In this document: piece by piece, positions 6,943-34,374 of the stretch | Layout: every line of letters begins with the position of its first letter | How positions within the stretch are numbered: position 1 is the first letter of the stretch | Source: Minisyncoccota bacterium | GTDB lineage: Bacteria; Patescibacteriota; Minisyncoccia; 2-02-FULL-40-12; GWA2-44-9 | DNA length: 35,965 nucleotides | Assembly (NCBI GenBank): GCA_018062285.1 | Contig: JAGOSO010000003.1 | Coordinates: forward strand, 70,992-106,956 | Reading direction: 5' to 3' | Translations under genes and position numbers: made by a program | Notes under the pieces: model-generated | Seen by the model: only the letters and a program-made list of their open reading frames with translations | Databases searched by the model: none | What the model was told of the DNA's origin: nothing

Positions 6943-9147
6943 CTATTTGCCTTGCGTCGGCCACGACTCTATCATGAGCAATTTCTTGTCTGATATTGGG
7001 AGCTTGGAGTAAATTTCTTCAGTAACGAAAGGCATGAATGGGTGGAGAATCTTGAGGCAGGTGACCAGGGTTTCAAAAAGCATTCTCTGGGCTGATTGCT
7101 TTGTTTTCATGTCTTCGCTTGAAAGCTTGGCTTTGCTTTCTTCTATTGTTTTGTCGGCAAAGGTGTGCCAGATATAGTGGTATATTTTCTCAGAAGCGAT
7201 ATAGAGTTTATATTCTTCGATTTCTTTTGTAATTTCGGTCACAAAATCACTTAACTCAGAAATAAGTTTTGCATCATCTTCTTTAAGATTTGCGGATTTA
7301 ATCTCGGATAAATCATCAGGCATACTCATCAGCACGAAGCGGGCAATATTCCAAAGCTTGTTGGCAAAGTTGCGGTAGCCCTTAACTCTTTGTAGGTCAA
7401 AGTTGCTGTCATTGCCCGGACCAATACCAACAACAACTGACATTCTTAGAGCATCGGCACCAAATTGCTTGATGACTTCGATCGGATCTACACCATTATC
7501 CAAAGATTTGGAGAATTTCTGGCCCTTGGCATCGCGCAGAATTCCATGAAGGTAAACTGTTTTGAAAGGAATTTCTCCCAACAGAAAACCACTCATCAAG
7601 ATCATTCTGGCTACCCAAAAAAATATAATCTCATACCCAGGATTCATTAAATCCGTCGGATGATACATTTTTAGGTCCGGTGCGTTTTCGTCTGGCCAGC
7701 CAAGAGTAGAGAATGTCCATAAGGCAGAAGAGAACCAGGTGTCTAATGTGTCTGGGTCTTGTTCCCAAGCATCTATGTCTTGTGGGGCATCAATACCAAC
7801 ATATAATTCTGTTGGATCTTCGCGCTTGTACCAAACCGGGATTCTGTGGCCATACCAAAGCTGGCGACTAATGTTCCAGTCACGTAGGTTGTTAATCCAA
7901 TTGAAATATATTTTTTCAAATCGATCGGGCATTATCGAAATCTGCTGACCAGAGACAGCCTTTTGCATGATTTCTTTTAGGGTTGTTTTCGCGCCACTGG
8001 CGATACCAGAGATAGAGGATTTTTTGATTTCAAATTCTTTGTTAACGGCAACAAACCATTGAATCTTTGGTAATGGTTCAATGGTTCCGCCAGAACGTTC
8101 AGCAACACTGATGTTCATTTCGGTGGCCTCTTCTTTTTCTAATAACCCCTGTTCTTTTAGCCAGGTGACAACTATCTCTCTGGCTTCTTTTGTTTTCTTG
8201 CCGGCAACCAACGGGCCAGCATTTTCGGTCATCTTGGCGTATTCGTTGATGACTTGAATCATGGGGAGGTTGTGTCTTTGGGCTATGTCGGCATCAATTA
8301 AGCTGTGGGCTGGGGTAACGCCAAGCGCCCCAGTTCCAAATTCTGGTTCAACAGAGTTGTCGGCAATAATTTTGACGTGAATTTTTGCTCCGGCAAATTC
8401 AAGATCATATTCTTTCCCAATGTATTCCTGGTAGCGCTTGTCGTCTGGATGAACTGCGACGGCCGTATCTCCAACTTTTGTTTCTGGGCGAGTGGTCGAA
8501 ATAGAAATAGGGAAGTCCTTAGAATATCTGAAAGTGTAAAGATTGGCCTTTTCTGGTCTGTGATTAACCTCGTCATCAGAGACAGATGTTTGGCCTTTGG
8601 GGTCCCAGTTAATAACGCGGAAACCGCGGTAGATTAAACCAGCGTCGTACATCCTCTTGAAAGCAACACGAACGGCAAGGTTGCGCTGCTCATCCATCGT
8701 GAAGGCTTCACGGCTCCAGTCTAATGATGTCCCCATCTGGCGAAGCTGACGTTGCATGGTGCCACGACTTTCGGCCACAAAGTCTTCAACTTTTTTAACA
8801 AAAGCTTCACGGCCAATATCGTGCCGGTTTTTACCATCTTCTTTGATGAGTATTTTTTCTACTTTGGTATTTGTGGCAATAGCAGCATGATCTGTCCCTG
8901 GAACCCAAAGAGTTTTCTTGCCACGCATTCTTTGGAAACGAACAATTGCATCCTGCAGAGAGTATTCTAGGGCATGACCAAGATGAAGAGTGCCTGTGGC
9001 ATTAGGGGGCGGGAGGGTAACAGTGAAGGTTTCTTTTCTGTCGCCAGGGAGATTGTCTGGATTAAAAAATCCGCTGTCTTCCCAGCGTTTATAGATGCCA
9101 TCTTCTACGTCGACAGCGTTATATGCTTTTGGTAATTCCTCGGCCAT
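6943..9147 (-). CDS. valS: Valine--tRNA ligase
   Basis: A class I synthetase that charges tRNA-Val in the cytoplasm. HLGH (residues 55-58, in the PPPNATGTLHLGHAL context typical of ValRS) is the HIGH motif and KFSKS (544-548) is the KMSKS motif. The editing (CP1) domain is present, with TTRPET and GTGALGVTPAHSLIDAD; the usual Asp after the conserved His is Ser here. The anticodon-binding helical domain follows. At 734 residues it is about 200 shorter than the E. coli enzyme. The sequence stops at a normal ValRS region (HPFMPFVTEEIY...ESWP), so the C-terminal coiled coil that contacts the tRNA elbow is absent. A TATACA element lies 5 bases before the ATG. It sits 32 bases downstream of tsaD. 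Confidence 0.97.
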   Translation of the reverse strand: MAEELPKAYNAVDVEDGIYKRWEDSGFFNPDNLPGDRKETFTVTLPPPNATGTLHLGHALEYSLQDAIVRFQRMRGKKTLWVPGTDHAAIATNTKVEKILIKEDGKNRHDIGREAFVKKVEDFVAESRGTMQRQLRQMGTSLDWSREAFTMDEQRNLAVRVAFKRMYDAGLIYRGFRVINWDPKGQTSVSDDEVNHRPEKANLYTFRYSKDFPISISTTRPETKVGDTAVAVHPDDKRYQEYIGKEYDLEFAGAKIHVKIIADNSVEPEFGTGALGVTPAHSLIDADIAQRHNLPMIQVINEYAKMTENAGPLVAGKKTKEAREIVVTWLKEQGLLEKEEATEMNISVAERSGGTIEPLPKIQWFVAVNKEFEIKKSSISGIASGAKTTLKEIMQKAVSGQQISIMPDRFEKIYFNWINNLRDWNISRQLWYGHRIPVWYKREDPTELYVGIDAPQDIDAWEQDPDTLDTWFSSALWTFSTLGWPDENAPDLKMYHPTDLMNPGYEIIFFWVARMILMSGFLLGEIPFKTVYLHGILRDAKGQKFSKSLDNGVDPIEVIKQFGADALRMSVVVGIGPGNDSNFDLQRVKGYRNFANKLWNIARFVLMSMPDDLSEIKSANLKEDDAKLISELSDFVTEITKEIEEYKLYIASEKIYHYIWHTFADKTIEESKAKLSSEDMKTKQSAQRMLFETLVTCLKILHPFMPFVTEEIYSKLPISDKKLLMIESWPTQGK

Positions 9148-16324: not shown

Positions 16325-17989
16325 ATGTTTAATTCTCCGAGAAGTTCAATAAAGAAAGCACTACTAGAAATCACAGAAAGTGATTTTGATGTTTTGGTGC
16401 CGCCAGATTCTAAGTTGGGGGACTATTCTACTAATGTTGCTTTTATCTTGGCCAAGAAGGAAGGCAAGAAGCCAGCTGATGTTGCCAATGAATTAAGAGA
16501 AAAACTAGCCGGTGGTGTTTTGGGTTCAATGTTTGATATGCAGGTTGCCCCAAATGGATTTTTGAATTTTTATGCTAAGTCAGAATTTTTGCAGAATCAA
16601 TTGGGGGAGATAAGTAAGAATGAAACTTATGGCCGAACCACTGATGGTAAAGGTAAAAAGATTATCGTTGAGTATTCTTCTCCTAATATTGCCAAGCCAA
16701 TGCATGTTGGTCACTTACGTTCTAATATAATCGGCGACTCGCTGGGAAATATTTACGAAAAACTTGGCTTCGATGTTGTCCGCTGGAACTATCTTGGTGA
16801 TTGGGGGACTCAATTTGGAAAAGTCATAGCTGGTTACAAAAAATGGGGAGAAGGTAAAGAAGATTTTACCATGGGTGATTTATTGCAGTGGTATGTAAAA
16901 GCTGGTGCTGAATTGCCAGAAGAAGTTGGTGCTGAAGAATTTAAAAAATTAGAAAACGGTGATTCCGAAAATAGAAAGCTCTGGGAGAGAGTTCGAGAAA
17001 TTTCTATTGCTGAATTAAAAACAATTTATCAATCCCTAGGGACACGTTCCTTTGATGTCTATAAAGGTGAGAGCGACTATGAGCCTAAGCTCAAGCCATT
17101 AATAGAAGACTTGGAACAAAAAGGGTTTGCCAAGGAAAGTGAAGGGGCTTTGATTATTGATTTGGGCGAGATGACGCCAATGTTGTTGCGCAAATCAGAT
17201 GGTGCCACCTTGTATGCTACTCGCGACATCACTAGTTTGCAGGATCGCATCGAAAGCCATCATCCCGATAAAATTTTATACGTCGTAGCCAACCAGCAGG
17301 CATTACATTTTGAACAATTGTTTGCCGTGGCCAAAAAATTAGGTTGGGATAAATCCGAATTAACTCACGTTAAATTCGGAATGGTTTTGGGTGAAGATGG
17401 AAAGAAGTTGGCCACTCGAGAGGGGAAGGTTGTACCGCTGCAAGAAGTGATTGATAAAATTACTGAACTCGCCAAGCAAACTGTTTTGCAAAAGAACCCT
17501 GAATCAAAGAATGTGGACGAGGTGGCTCATGTCGTTGCTATTGGTGCATTAAAATACAACGACCTCAAACAGCATCCATATTCGGATATTGAATTTGATT
17601 GGAAGGCGATGTTGGATTTGTCTGGCAACAGTGGTCCTTACATTCAGTACACCTATGCTCGCTTGGCTAACATTTTAAATAAGGCCGGAAGTTTTGGTGA
17701 AGGTGATTTAAAATTATTAGTTGAACCAACTGAGCGAGCCATGATGCGCCAACTTTTGGATTACCCTTATGCCATCCAAGAATGTGCTGAACGTTATGCT
17801 CTGAATGGCCTCGCTCTCTATTTGTATGACTTGGCCCATCTCTCAAACCAATTCTATGAACTGGTCCATGTATTGGAAGATGAGGACACTTCTCGCCGTG
17901 ATGCCCGCTTGTTGCTCATCAAAACAGTTGCCCGTACTCTCAAAGACGGCCTCTCTGTATTAGGTATCCAAACCCTTGAAAGAATCTAG
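16325..17989 (+). CDS. argS: Arginine--tRNA ligase
   Basis: A class I synthetase for tRNA-Arg, 554 residues, near the usual length. The short N-terminal Add1 domain includes LGDYSTNVAF and APNGFLNF. HVGH (127-130) in SSPNIAKPMHVGHLRSNIIG is the HIGH motif, and NYLGDWGTQFGKVI is diagnostic for ArgRS. KKLATR (360-365) stands for KMSKS in the diverged form typical of ArgRS. The C-terminal DALR anticodon domain ends in LLIKTVARTLKDGLSVLGI. An extended -10 element lies 6 bases before the ATG. It is followed closely by ileS. Confidence 0.97.
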   Translation: MFNSPRSSIKKALLEITESDFDVLVPPDSKLGDYSTNVAFILAKKEGKKPADVANELREKLAGGVLGSMFDMQVAPNGFLNFYAKSEFLQNQLGEISKNETYGRTTDGKGKKIIVEYSSPNIAKPMHVGHLRSNIIGDSLGNIYEKLGFDVVRWNYLGDWGTQFGKVIAGYKKWGEGKEDFTMGDLLQWYVKAGAELPEEVGAEEFKKLENGDSENRKLWERVREISIAELKTIYQSLGTRSFDVYKGESDYEPKLKPLIEDLEQKGFAKESEGALIIDLGEMTPMLLRKSDGATLYATRDITSLQDRIESHHPDKILYVVANQQALHFEQLFAVAKKLGWDKSELTHVKFGMVLGEDGKKLATREGKVVPLQEVIDKITELAKQTVLQKNPESKNVDEVAHVVAIGALKYNDLKQHPYSDIEFDWKAMLDLSGNSGPYIQYTYARLANILNKAGSFGEGDLKLLVEPTERAMMRQLLDYPYAIQECAERYALNGLALYLYDLAHLSNQFYELVHVLEDEDTSRRDARLLLIKTVARTLKDGLSVLGIQTLERI

Positions 17990-18033: not shown

Positions 18034-21000
18034 ATGTATGACTTCAAAGAGACAGAGTCTAGAGTAAGTAAATTCTGGGCTGACCATTCTATTTTTGAAA
18101 AGTCACTCGAGCTTCGCCGGAAGGGGAAGCGTTTCGTGTTCTGGGAGGGCCCACCAACGGCCAATGGCTTGCCTCATACCGGCCATTTCTTAACTCGTAT
18201 TTATAAAGATGTTTACGGACGCTACAAAACCATGCGTGGCTTTTTCGTTTCTCGTAAAGCTGGCTGGGATACTCATGGTTTGCCAGTCGAAATCGAAATC
18301 GAAAAAGAATTAGGTTTCAATAATAAAAAGCAGGTTGAAGAATACGGTATTGCTAAATTTAATCGCAAGGCTCGCCAGAGTGTTTGGAAATATACTCACG
18401 AGTGGGAAGAGATGACACGCAAGATGGGTTTCTGGTTAGATCTCGATCACCCTTATGTTACCTACGAGAACAACTATATGGAATCGGTTTGGAGTATCTT
18501 GAAAACTGTTTCTGACAAAGGTTTGCTTTATCAGGCCCATAAAGTTGTTCCTTTCTGTGCCCGTTGCGGTACACCGCTTTCTGCCCACGAAGTTGCCCAG
18601 GGTTACAAAACCGTAAAAGATACATCGGTTTATTTGAAATTTAAAGTTAAGGATCAAGAAAATACTTTTATCTTGGCTTGGACAACCACACCATGGACCT
18701 TGCCTGGCAACGTCGCTTTGGCAGTTGGTGCAGAGGTGAATTATGTTTATGTTCAAAAAGATGGAGAAACTCTTATTCTCGCCAAAGACTTATTAGAAAA
18801 AATACTCGGTGAAGGTAACGCAATCGACAAAGAAGTTCCTGGTTCTGAATTAGTCGGCATGGAATACGAGTCATTGTTTGATGTTCCAGAATTAAAATCA
18901 GAAAATTCATACAAGGTTTATCCGGCCGACTTTGTAACCACCACTGATGGTACTGGTGTCGTCCACACTGCCGTGATGTACGGCGAAGACGATTATGTTT
19001 TAGGCACTAAATTAAATTTACCTAAGGTTCATACTGTTAACGAACAGGGCCATTTTATTGATTCAATTGGTGATGGCTTGGCAGGTAAGTATGTAAAAAG
19101 TAAGGGGACAGAAGATTTAATTATTGAAAAATTAAAAGAAAGAAATCAGTTATTTAAAGTTGAAGAATACGAACACGAATATCCATTCTGTTGGCGCTGC
19201 AACACGCCATTATTGTATTACGCTAAGACCGCTTGGTTTATCCGCACATCAGCCATCAACAAAGAATTGTTGGCCAACAATGCGACTGTAAATTGGAAAC
19301 CAGAACACGTTAAAGACGGACGCTTTGGCCAGTGGATTAAAGAAGGCCGAGATTGGACTCTTTCCCGTGAACGCTATTGGGGCACCCCATTACCAATTTG
19401 GGAATGTGTTCAGTGTGATCACAAAACAACAATAGGTTCGATCAAAGAATTAGAAAAATTATCAATCGGTCAGAAAAATACTTACTATGTGATGCGTCAT
19501 AGCTTAAGTACGCGTAATGAGGCAGGAACAAACATTGTAAGCTCGCACTTAGAATCAGACAAATACCATCTCACTGAAGAGGGTAAGGGGATGGTGGAAC
19601 GCTCTTTGGAGTTATTGAAACTGGATGGTGTTGATGCAATTTATTCCTCACCATTTTTACGTACAAAAGAAACTGCAGAAATTGCAGGTAAGGTGTTGCA
19701 TCATACTGTCGAGGTTGATGCGCGGTTGTCTGAGATTGATCGCCCAATTGAATTTGAGGGACAAACTCCAGCCGAAGGCATGGAAAAGGAAAGCGATGAA
19801 TCAATAAGAACACGACTCGCAGAATTTATTAAAGAGATAGAAACAAAACATAAAAATAAGAAAATTTTGATTGTTACGCACATGCGCCCGATGTATCTAT
19901 TGCAGGCGATTGCGGGTGGTTATTCTAGTGCAGAACTAAAAAATAAAGATGGTCTTAATTTTTCTTTGCCCAATCTTGCTGAAATAAGAAAATTAGAATG
20001 GCGCAATATTCCACGCAATGAATATGGTGAATTGGATTTGCACCGACCATTTATAGATGAGGTGGTTATTAAGTGTACTCAGTGTAAATCAAAGATGAGG
20101 AAGATCCCTGATTTGATTGACGTCTGGTTTGACTCTGGGGCAATGCCTTATGCTCAATGGCACTACCCATTCGAGAATAAAGATGTCTTCAAGAAACAAT
20201 TCCCAGCTGATTTCATCGTTGAGGGTATGGATCAAACTCGTGGTTGGTTCTGGTCTCTCTTGGGTATTGCAACCCTGCTCGGTTATGGCGCTCCATACAA
20301 AAACGTAATGGCTCTCGGTTTCACTCTGGATTCCAAAGGTGTTAAGGAATCAAAATCAAAAGGAAACTACGTTCCAATTCTTGAATTCATGGGTCAGCAT
20401 GGCTCTGATGTTTTGCGTTGGTATTTTGCTTCAACAATGACAGCTGGTGAGAATAAATCAGTTATTCCTCGCGAGATCGACGACAAATTAAAAGGTTTCT
20501 TCTTCACCCTTCAGAACTGTCTTCGCTTCTATGAATTGTATGCTGCTGAAGAAAAAGGAGAGATCGCCAAATTAACTACGCTCGATAAATGGTTGATGTC
20601 TCGTTTGTATCGAACAATAGATACTGTCACAAATAGCCTCGATACTTATGACGTTGTTGTTGCTGGCCGTGCCCTAGAGCAGTTTGTTGCCGAAGATTTA
20701 TCCAACTGGTGGTTGCGTCGTTCTCGCCGTCGGAAAGAAGCTTTACCATTGCTGCGCAGTGTCTTGATTGAAGTTTCAAAATTAATCGCGCCATTTACAC
20801 CATTCATGGCCGAAGATTCATATCGCCGTATGGGTGGAGAGTTAGAATCGGTCCATTTGGCTGATTGGCCAAAGGTCCAAAAGAAATATATCGATGACAA
20901 ACTCGAAGCTGAGATGGTTAATGCCCGTGCTGTTATCGCCGCAGGCTTAGCTGAACGTAAAAATAAACAATTCAAAGTTCGTCAGCCTTTATCTTCTGTC

Positions 21001-21399
21001 ACAATCAAAAACGGAAAGTTTAGTCGTGACCTTGAAGGTTTAATCAAAGAAGAATTAAACGTTAAGAAAGTTGAATACAACAAAGAACAGGAGACTGAAG
21101 TTGTTCTCGATCTTGTTTTAACTCCGGCTTTGACCCGCGAAGGTTATGCCCGCGAACTGATGCGTCAGATTCAAGACATGCGCAAAGAAGCCAAGTATCA
21201 AATGGATGAATCGGTTATGGTTGATTGGCACAGCGAAGACTCAGAAGTTGTTTCTGCTATTACTGAATGGTCCGATGCGATAAAAGCCGATACTGTCCTA
21301 AAGACCTTAGAACAAAAAGAAAAACATGGTCTCTACGACATCGAAAAAGAATCCGAGCTAGCTCCTAGTAAAAAGATTTGGTTAGGTATTAAGAAATAG
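18034..21399 (+). CDS. ileS: Isoleucine--tRNA ligase with embedded histidine-phosphatase domain
   Basis: A class I synthetase for tRNA-Ile, resembling the eukaryote-like IleRS type. HTGH (48-51) is the HIGH motif and KESKS (771-775) replaces KMSKS. The editing domain includes AWTTTPWTLPGNVALAVG and TGVVHTAVMYGEDDY. Unusually, residues about 483-656 are an insertion with all signatures of a histidine phosphatase: TYYVMRHSLSTRNE (R488, H489), SSPFLRTKETAE (R543), LSEID (E567) and IVTHMRP (H616). It sits between IGSIKELEKL and ELDLHRPFIDEV, next to the catalytic core. The frame is continuous with flanking IleRS on both sides. Total length is 1121 residues, about 946 without the insertion. TATAGT lies 8 bases before the ATG. 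recO starts 1 base after the stop. Confidence 0.96.
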   Translation: MYDFKETESRVSKFWADHSIFEKSLELRRKGKRFVFWEGPPTANGLPHTGHFLTRIYKDVYGRYKTMRGFFVSRKAGWDTHGLPVEIEIEKELGFNNKKQVEEYGIAKFNRKARQSVWKYTHEWEEMTRKMGFWLDLDHPYVTYENNYMESVWSILKTVSDKGLLYQAHKVVPFCARCGTPLSAHEVAQGYKTVKDTSVYLKFKVKDQENTFILAWTTTPWTLPGNVALAVGAEVNYVYVQKDGETLILAKDLLEKILGEGNAIDKEVPGSELVGMEYESLFDVPELKSENSYKVYPADFVTTTDGTGVVHTAVMYGEDDYVLGTKLNLPKVHTVNEQGHFIDSIGDGLAGKYVKSKGTEDLIIEKLKERNQLFKVEEYEHEYPFCWRCNTPLLYYAKTAWFIRTSAINKELLANNATVNWKPEHVKDGRFGQWIKEGRDWTLSRERYWGTPLPIWECVQCDHKTTIGSIKELEKLSIGQKNTYYVMRHSLSTRNEAGTNIVSSHLESDKYHLTEEGKGMVERSLELLKLDGVDAIYSSPFLRTKETAEIAGKVLHHTVEVDARLSEIDRPIEFEGQTPAEGMEKESDESIRTRLAEFIKEIETKHKNKKILIVTHMRPMYLLQAIAGGYSSAELKNKDGLNFSLPNLAEIRKLEWRNIPRNEYGELDLHRPFIDEVVIKCTQCKSKMRKIPDLIDVWFDSGAMPYAQWHYPFENKDVFKKQFPADFIVEGMDQTRGWFWSLLGIATLLGYGAPYKNVMALGFTLDSKGVKESKSKGNYVPILEFMGQHGSDVLRWYFASTMTAGENKSVIPREIDDKLKGFFFTLQNCLRFYELYAAEEKGEIAKLTTLDKWLMSRLYRTIDTVTNSLDTYDVVVAGRALEQFVAEDLSNWWLRRSRRRKEALPLLRSVLIEVSKLIAPFTPFMAEDSYRRMGGELESVHLADWPKVQKKYIDDKLEAEMVNARAVIAAGLAERKNKQFKVRQPLSSVTIKNGKFSRDLEGLIKEELNVKKVEYNKEQETEVVLDLVLTPALTREGYARELMRQIQDMRKEAKYQMDESVMVDWHSEDSEVVSAITEWSDAIKADTVLKTLEQKEKHGLYDIEKESELAPSKKIWLGIKK

Positions 21400-21400
21400 A

Positions 21401-22120
21401 ATGCGAACCAAGGCGATCGTGATTAGAAAACAGCAGGCGAATGAGTTTGATCAGATCGTTACTTTGTATTCAGAGGATTTTGGGACTATGCGAGCGATGG
21501 CGAGAGGAATCTGTCGGCCAACTTCGGTACAATCGATGCATTTGGAATTATTAAACGCTGTTGAGTTTGAGGTGATTCACGGCAAAGCCTTGCCGATTAT
21601 TTCTTCGGCGGTCATGAGCCATCAGTACAATGGAATAAAAGAATCGTTGCCTAAGCTGGCAGCGGTGCAATTTTTCACAGAAGTTTTGGATAAGATTGCT
21701 TTTGAAAACGAAAAAGATACAAATCTTTGGAATTTTTTTAATGCAATGTTGGTTGATTTTGACACATTCGCAGAGGCCGAGACTTTATCTTTATTCAGAA
21801 AACACCAAGCCAACTTTTTGAGAGTTTTAGGCTATGCACCTCAGATTGATAGATGTGTTGTTTGTTCTGTTGATCCACAAACTGGTCCAGAGAGAATGGT
21901 GGCTTTGAGTACTGAGTTGGGTGGAGTGATGTGTTCTGATTGTTTTTTGGCTGGCGGGAAAGGAATTTTATTTGATAAGACTGATTTGGGTCTACTGAGT
22001 GGCGCACCGTCTGCAATGCCCGTGTCTGTAAGTAGACATTCCGCCCTAGATACTTTTTTTGAATTTACTGTTGGACGGAAGATCTCCTCTCTCAGTTTTC
22101 TTTACCAAGTTATAAAATGA
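21401..22120 (+). CDS. recO: DNA repair protein RecO
   Basis: RecO loads RecA at ssDNA gaps with RecR. The 239-residue protein has the N-terminal OB fold (MRTKAIVIRKQQANEFDQIVTLYSEDFGTMRAMARGI, the typical opening), a helical domain, and a zinc-finger with Cys152, Cys155, Cys178 and Cys181 (CVVC and CSDC). The length matches the family. It begins 1 base after the ileS stop with no Shine-Dalgarno sequence of its own, so translational coupling to ileS is likely. It ends with TGA. Confidence 0.93.
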   Translation: MRTKAIVIRKQQANEFDQIVTLYSEDFGTMRAMARGICRPTSVQSMHLELLNAVEFEVIHGKALPIISSAVMSHQYNGIKESLPKLAAVQFFTEVLDKIAFENEKDTNLWNFFNAMLVDFDTFAEAETLSLFRKHQANFLRVLGYAPQIDRCVVCSVDPQTGPERMVALSTELGGVMCSDCFLAGGKGILFDKTDLGLLSGAPSAMPVSVSRHSALDTFFEFTVGRKISSLSFLYQVIK

Positions 22121-33219: not shown

Positions 33220-34374
33220 ATGAACATATCCATAGCAGGAGACGACAAGTTGGTAGAAGTTCTTTCCAAAAGAACTGACGCAGAAGCTCGAAGGATGGAA
33301 AGGTTTTTGGCTATGCCTGATTTGTCTCGCCAAGAAGGCAGCCCTATTTTTGAGATCGTGCATCGTATTTTAAGCCAGCCTAATTTTAAAGATTTCGATG
33401 TTATCACCACACCGGAAATCGTTCGAGCAGATATGAGTTTTGATTTGTTCGATTTCCCAGCCGATCACCCCGCTCGTTCCAAGTCAGACACTTATTATGT
33501 AGATGATAATAATATTTTGCGTACCCACACGACAGTAATGTGGAATTATTATCTCGCCCAAGAAGACGTAAAAAAAAGAATGGCCGAGAATAAGCCGGTA
33601 GGGTCATTCTCTTACGGCAAGGTTTATCGTAAGGACGAAATCGATCGTAACCATATGAACGTTTTCCATCAGATGGACGGCTGGTATCTCGCCCCAAAAG
33701 ATCAGCAACAAATCGGTGCCCCAGAATTAGAAAAAGTTTTAACTGATATTGCTAAGGCGGTTTTCGGTCCTGATGTTAAATACAGGTTCAACCCAGACAC
33801 ATTCCCTTACACTGATCCATCCCTAGAGATGGAGATTGAAGTGACTCGTTCAATTGGGGGAGTGGTAGAAACAAAATGGGTTGAGGTCTTGGGCTCTGGC
33901 GTTGTAAAAGGAAAGGTTCTGGAAAATCACGGCGTAGATTCCACCAAGTGGAATGGCTGGGCTTTCGGCTTCGGATTAGAACGCTTGGCGATTATCTCTA
34001 TGGAGCTTCCAGATATTCGTTTGCTTTGGTCTCAGGACGAAAGAGTGAAGAAGCAATTGGTTCTAGGTACTCACTACAAAGAAGTCTCAAAGTATCCGCC
34101 GATTGTTCGCGATATTTCTTTTGTGGTTCATAAAGATTTCGTTCCTAATAATTATTTTGATTTGATTCGTGATATTGGCGGGGACTTGGTTGAAGAAGTT
34201 CAATTGATTGATAAATATGAAAATGCTTCAAAATTCGGACCAGATAAAATTAGCTATACTTACAGAATTACTTATCGCTCAACAGAAAGGACTCTTCAAA
34301 CAGAAGAGATAGATCCTATCCAGCAAGAGGTCTACGATCGCACCAAGAAGGAGTTTGATGCAGAAGTTCGCTAG
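33220..34374 (+). CDS. pheS: Phenylalanine--tRNA ligase, single-chain form with FDX-ACB domain
   Basis: A class II synthetase for tRNA-Phe. The catalytic core is PheS-like: TTPEIV and HPARSKSDTYYV, motif 2 YGKVYRKDEIDRNHMNVFHQ, MEIEVTRSI and motif 3 GFGLERLAIISMELPDIRLL. From about residue 290 it continues in frame into an FDX-ACB anticodon-binding domain (KYPPIVRDISFVVHKDFV ... YTYRITYRSTERTLQTEEID), which in bacteria normally ends the separate PheT subunit. This PheS core plus FDX-ACB layout is that of the monomeric mitochondrial enzyme. The bacterial PheS N-terminal coiled coil is missing. No pheT follows: a terminator and gyrB come next. At 384 residues it is somewhat shorter than human FARS2. 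Confidence 0.95.
   Translation: MNISIAGDDKLVEVLSKRTDAEARRMERFLAMPDLSRQEGSPIFEIVHRILSQPNFKDFDVITTPEIVRADMSFDLFDFPADHPARSKSDTYYVDDNNILRTHTTVMWNYYLAQEDVKKRMAENKPVGSFSYGKVYRKDEIDRNHMNVFHQMDGWYLAPKDQQQIGAPELEKVLTDIAKAVFGPDVKYRFNPDTFPYTDPSLEMEIEVTRSIGGVVETKWVEVLGSGVVKGKVLENHGVDSTKWNGWAFGFGLERLAIISMELPDIRLLWSQDERVKKQLVLGTHYKEVSKYPPIVRDISFVVHKDFVPNNYFDLIRDIGGDLVEEVQLIDKYENASKFGPDKISYTYRITYRSTERTLQTEEIDPIQQEVYDRTKKEFDAEVR

Follow-up and report, generated by a model that had tools for sequence, protein, structure and literature searches.

A histidine-phosphatase domain inside or beside the isoleucyl-tRNA synthetase of Patescibacteria and its possible role at isoleucine charging

Why should an essential synthetase carry a phosphatase in the middle of its chain? 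The question is raised by a stretch of 35,965 nucleotides from a Minisyncoccota bacterium (contig JAGOSO010000003.1), called the window here in its whole length, in which the isoleucyl-tRNA synthetase (IleRS) contains a branch-1 histidine-phosphatase (HP) domain. Aminoacyl-tRNA synthetases (aaRSs) often acquire extra domains, and an aaRS with an additional enzyme domain is already known (e.g., ileS_w_GNAT). The IleRS/HP partnership appears to be undescribed, since no published account of it was found in the open-access literature searched. The answer preferred here, to which a probability of about one half is given, is that this PhoE/CobC-like HP of Patescibacteria is a dedicated partner of IleRS that clears a phosphorylated by-product or an inhibitory ligand related to charging. 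The observations that bear on it are the architecture of the protein, the conservation of its catalytic residues, the occurrence of two interchangeable layouts and the additional insertions in valyl-tRNA synthetase (ValRS).

The ileS gene of the window and the site of the insert

The features of the locus, all on the forward strand, are as follows.

16325..17989, +, argS, directly upstream of ileS
18034..21399, +, ileS, type-2-like IleRS with inserted phosphatase, 1121 aa in a single continuous frame
19405..19416, +, flank WECVQC on the upstream side of the insert, with the first CxxC pair (C458, C461) of the second zinc-binding module
19480..20001, +, branch-1 HP domain, residues 483–656 of IleRS
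19495..19500, +, R488-H489, with H489 the predicted phospho-acceptor; RHS in the window, RHG in most relatives
19660..19662, +, Arg543, predicted catalytic residue, invariant
19732..19734, +, Glu567, predicted acid/base; relatives have E or D here
19879..19881, +, His616, predicted second catalytic His, invariant in IleRS inserts
20074..20085, +, flank IKCTQC on the downstream side of the insert, with the second CxxC pair (C681, C684) of the same zinc module
21401..22120, +, recO, directly downstream of ileS

The identity of the host protein is clear. The open reading frame scores 855 bits on the ileS equivalog profile TIGR00392 (cut-off 621), bears the HIGH motif as PHTGH near residues 47–51 and has an editing domain at residues 190–384 that matches solved IleRS editing domains. 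No second IleRS is encoded in the genome, which measures 712 kb and has a completeness rating of 100%; the other matches to IleRS are ValRS- and LeuRS-like frames with 23–28% identity over parts of their length and 50% in one short stretch. The full-length model is confident (pLDDT 90, pTM 0.80), and the best solved match is Priestia megaterium IleRS2 (33% identity and TM 0.73–0.79 with 8c8v). The catalytic core, editing domain, zinc module and anticodon domain are shared with the type-2 IleRSs (P. megaterium IleRS2, 8c8u/8c8v; Thermus, 1ile). These known structures have no phosphatase, whereas the window IleRS has about 190 residues in the linker of the zinc module. A separate peculiarity of the protein is its KMSKS motif, which reads KESKS (residues 771–775, positions 20344–20358) through replacement of Met772 by Glu; the consensus of relatives is KMSKS, and both lysines are invariant in 42 aligned relatives.

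In the Pfam analysis, the tRNA-synt_1 match is split and flanks a His_Phos_1 (PF00300) match at residues 485–641, whose score of 76.3 bits (cut-off 21.7; E = 3.2e-21) is far beyond chance. Compared with insert-free IleRSs, the extra sequence is estimated to span about residues 477–664. The original prediction had described an HP domain with Arg488, His489, Arg543, Glu567 and His616, in one frame with IleRS and located between the segments IGSIKEL and LHRPFID, and both profiles and the residue positions agree with that description. The CxxC pairs in WECVQC and IKCTQC form what we take to be the second zinc-binding module of type-2 IleRSs (cf. Thermus IleRS). They align to 8c8u, and the cysteines of the second pair are present in 50 of 52 aligned IleRSs. 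The HP domain thus lengthens the linker between two pairs that remain conserved, at a site beside the catalytic core. In insert-free close relatives (G018 from the window's own family, G039 from its order and many in the class), the profile segments that flank the insert are directly consecutive, and insert-free IleRSs are mostly about 950–1000 residues long. The site had first been taken for the CP2 domain of LeuRS; in the light of PMC9424281 it is called the second zinc module here.

A misjoin confined to this assembly had been considered in the original prediction. The same architecture occurs with continuous frames in dozens of independently assembled relatives, which refutes an assembly or gene-prediction artefact and leaves it a negligible chance.

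Conservation and fold of the phosphatase domain

The model of the HP domain (pLDDT 91, pTM 0.89) predicts the alpha/beta/alpha fold of HPs, and its best matches in the PDB are HPs, namely phosphoserine phosphatase, PhoE and CobC (TM up to 0.76, normalized by query). The fold and the catalytic residues are common to the window HP and to PhoE, phosphoserine phosphatase 1 and CobC (1h2e, 4ij5, 6e4b; PF00300). Unlike these enzymes, the window HP is inserted in a tRNA synthetase, or in relatives coupled to one, and in IleRS-type HPs the second His tends to be followed by an HGDPL-like stretch. None of the NCBIfam equivalog cut-offs for HP enzymes (CobC, dPGM, PspA, SixA) was reached by the window HP; the best score was that of dPGM_arch (58.0 bits vs. 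225), with CobC at 39.7 vs. 162.9 bits and SixA at 22.8 vs. 74.5 bits. Other known fusions are comparable only in part. The ileS_w_GNAT family (NF040702) likewise joins an extra enzyme domain to IleRS, but this is an acetyltransferase; the window IleRS scores 288 bits on that profile (cut-off 1999), with no GNAT match. Mycobacterial MutT1 (Nudix-HP) and the RNase H/acid phosphatase PRK07238 also combine a branch-1 HP with an enzyme that acts on nucleotides or nucleic acids, but their fusions are terminal, while the window HP is internal to the synthetase.

Not one of the 77 aligned IleRS inserts or the 19 separate IleRS-type HPs departs from Arg488, His489, Arg543 and His616, and an acidic residue, E or D, occupies position 567 throughout both sets. 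These four residues stay fixed while the identity of the domain to the window copy drops to approximately 27–35%. Where dN/dS could be computed (genus and nearest relative), it was about 0.05–0.15 with dS near saturation, pointing to purifying selection. The window's own copy has drifted: it reads RHS through G490S (Gly in 91% of IleRS inserts), has Pro for the usual Gly at 571 and is weak-scoring, most relatives reaching about 80–145 bits on PF00300. The reading as a dead domain is rejected on the conservation of the catalytic residues, despite the drift of the window copy. Loss of the catalytic His and Arg in relatives, the second sequence-level condition that would have gone against the original prediction, is likewise not observed, and the HP is probably an active phosphatase, as judged from sequence.

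Distribution, the second layout and insertions in ValRS

The original prediction allowed for similar annotations in CPR genomes and proposed a search for such proteins. The insert proved to be widespread, mostly placed within the second zinc-finger linker and with both His conserved in IleRS inserts. A PF00300 match was found in frames longer than 1000 residues in at least 19 of the 28 genomes that belong to the window's family and at least 33 of the 45 in its order, with fragmentary cases besides; those retrieved proved to be IleRSs by similarity or profile. The class was sampled by 136 genomes outside the window's order. IleRS and HP share one frame in 85 of them, 14 lack the insert in ileS but have an IleRS-type HP gene upstream of it at a distance of no more than 2 kb (all of these layouts verified), a candidate HP is on a different contig in 4, and about a quarter (33) have neither layout. 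In the rest of the phylum, the HP is absent from most sampled genomes and present in several families. Carriers named in the records include Candidatus Yanofskybacteria, Wolfebacteria, Nomurabacteria, Staskawiczbacteria (as a separate gene) and Peregrinibacteria. None of the 63 IleRS frames among the non-CPR-like loci listed in the genome-contig scan had the HP. One contig labelled Spirochaetia (L068) groups with a Wolfebacteria IleRS insert and is thus probably mis-binned.

The separate genes are informative. Those that score best on the insert profile (141–216 bits) mostly share a strand with an insert-free ileS and immediately precede it. Of 16 distinct adjacent loci, 10 have the HP gene abutting or overlapping ileS, for example with the HP stop and the ileS start overlapping as ATGA (L228); the spacing in another (L081) is 6 nt. 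The gene order is argS-hp-ileS in 13 of the 16, and the window has argS-ileS with the HP inside. On the HP tree, the inserted and the adjacent HPs fall together and are separated from the other HPs with a support of 90, and the IleRS hosts of the two layouts are interleaved on the IleRS tree, where the adjacent state needs 12 changes; the layout was thus switched, or loci were exchanged, repeatedly. Insert and separate gene therefore substitute for one another through such switching or locus exchange. This swap, as read from gene order and trees, is the best evidence for the HP working with IleRS as opposed to a passive insertion, and it suggests so in a way that could not be seen from the window alone, which adds to the support for the original interpretation. 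Frames split at the insert (L067, L165/L182) had been read as fissions; this was rejected, as the proteins end in runs of X that mark an assembly gap (checked for L067).

HP domains also occur in ValRS. Eight frames of the class are ValRSs with an HP between the equivalent CxxC pairs, and these HPs group apart from the IleRS inserts. Outside the class, two further ValRS inserts (L148, L149) and one double insert (L146) were found. The ValRS inserts retain the four catalytic residues except for L148, which has lost the second His and falls among IleRS inserts on the tree. A single origin of the IleRS and ValRS HPs is less likely than separate origins, although the test does not reject it (AU p 0.10), so that independent insertion into ValRS is favored but unproven. 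One stand-alone gene for a ValRS-group HP (L205/L256) does not adjoin valS. The ValRS gene of the window genome is also within the window:

6943..9147, −, valS, 734 aa

The only PF00300 matches of this genome are the ileS insert and a stand-alone C12 gene, so its ValRS has no insert. This ValRS is short; its best profile matches stop near position 700–715 of about 860, so that the C-terminal part appears to be absent.

Further architectures were met. IleRSs of the Peregrinibacteria type (L078, L080, L144, L145) have tandem HPs, the second of which groups with ValRS inserts in three of the four. A 1451-residue IleRS (L147, 2138–6490, −) contains a GNAT insert and an HP, the latter between the catalytic core and the anticodon domain, a site unlike all others seen. 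Outside the synthetases, a D-2-hydroxyacid dehydrogenase is fused to a C-terminal histidine phosphatase in two loci (L159, 2988–4643, −; L160, 2764–4413, −).

Possible roles of the phosphatase

That a catalytically intact phosphatase is kept in an enzyme as essential as a synthetase over a large radiation of bacteria, swaps with a coupled gene and recurs in ValRS points to a conserved function. In the proposed mechanism, phosphate would be transferred through a phospho-His489 intermediate, with Arg488 and Arg543 binding the phosphate, Glu567 acting as acid/base and His616 assisting. Co-produced with IleRS, the HP might clear a phosphorylated by-product or inhibitory ligand where isoleucine is charged, and in some lineages the same clearing might take place at valine charging. 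A first guess for the substrate would be an adenine nucleotide, a diadenosine polyphosphate (ApnA) or an alarmone; the genome encodes a RelA_SpoT-domain protein, which makes an alarmone possible. Precedents for HP-type enzymes that touch nucleotides or phospho-proteins are mycobacterial MutT1 (Nudix-HP) and SixA (PMC11784022, PMC12934123). Hydrolysis of pyrophosphate is unlikely, since a separate inorganic pyrophosphatase is encoded elsewhere in the genome (PF00719, 2.1e-55). Of the original interpretation, the intact domain, its catalytic residues and its spread in CPR have thus stood, and the suggestion of pyrophosphate as a substrate has been weakened. The HP is not required for charging as such, given the 33 class genomes and the majority of other sampled Patescibacteria with neither layout. 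Stated more specifically, patescibacterial IleRS, and ValRS in some lineages, may tentatively be credited with a third built-in activity in addition to synthesis and editing, a phosphatase for a charging-related ligand (nucleotide, alarmone or blocked tRNA end) that would also be workable as a separate, co-expressed protein. If this were true, translation would include a quality-control or signalling step that has so far gone undescribed. His489, His616 and the separate-gene versions (L081, L228) offer a handle on the ligand that matters at isoleucine charging in bacteria with minimal genomes.

Specificity in PhoE-like phosphatases is often broad, which counts against a dedicated partner. A general housekeeping phosphatase could be kept in or beside ileS simply because an essential, well-expressed gene ensures a steady supply, and its substrate would then be an ordinary metabolite. 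Its nearest solved relatives (PhoE, phosphoserine phosphatase, CobC) fit such a role, as does the fact that the insert is the sole PF00300 protein in several genomes (G007, G009, G017 and others). This explanation is nevertheless rather unlikely in view of the repeated association with ileS in two layouts, the insertions at the equivalent site of the paralogue ValRS, the tandem HPs in some IleRSs and the additional stand-alone HPs that other genomes hold alongside the insert. The catalytic residues, among the few invariant positions of a diverging domain, and the ability of a separate gene to replace the insert speak against a structural spacer whose fold would serve stability, dimerization or tRNA contact with catalysis irrelevant. 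It is very improbable, even though the domain sits in a linker, the remaining IleRS is intact and insert-free homologues exist in the same family.

More specific substrates can also be envisaged. The HP might remove phosphate or pyrophosphate from the 3′ CCA end of a tRNA that has been blocked there by a toxin such as a toxic small alarmone synthetase (toxSAS). The placement of the insert beside the catalytic core would suit such a rescue, and the genome's RelA_SpoT-domain protein adjoins another HP gene, but this protein is at most a candidate toxin, and we know of no HP that acts on tRNA ends. There is a precedent for the damage itself, as toxSAS enzymes prevent aminoacylation by pyrophosphorylating the CCA end of tRNAs (PMC11559606). 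Restriction to isoleucine and valine would be left unexplained, and the pI values (medians of 6.9 for inserted, 8.6 for adjacent and 6.2 for other HPs) do not mark the domain as notably basic, so the idea of a strongly basic, tRNA-facing surface was abandoned. Rescue of tRNA ends is accordingly regarded as improbable. A phospho-protein phosphatase that undoes a phosphorylation placed on IleRS or one of its partners, for instance by a HipA-like kinase, would have a parallel in the HP SixA, which acts on the phospho-protein Ndk (PMC12934123). Both the kinase and the phosphosite would be hypothetical, and there is little chance that this is the explanation. Clearing of a charging-related ligand by a dedicated IleRS partner is the reading retained.

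Two other loci of the window genome deserve mention. The window encodes a single-chain PheRS of 384 residues (33220–34374, +), with a class II core and a C-terminal FDX-ACB domain as in the mitochondrial monomeric type. A search of the genome for pheT gave nothing above the cut-off, the best match being the FDX-ACB part of this protein; the usual PheRS of two subunits may therefore be missing from this cell. Elsewhere (G000:C12; L235, 5069–6782), the RelA_SpoT-domain protein (349 residues, distantly YjbM-like) is encoded 118 bp upstream of the stand-alone HP, in which RHG is changed to VHG. Two Nudix-like genes are nearby, and HPs very similar to this stand-alone HP occur in other genera (L197–L200).
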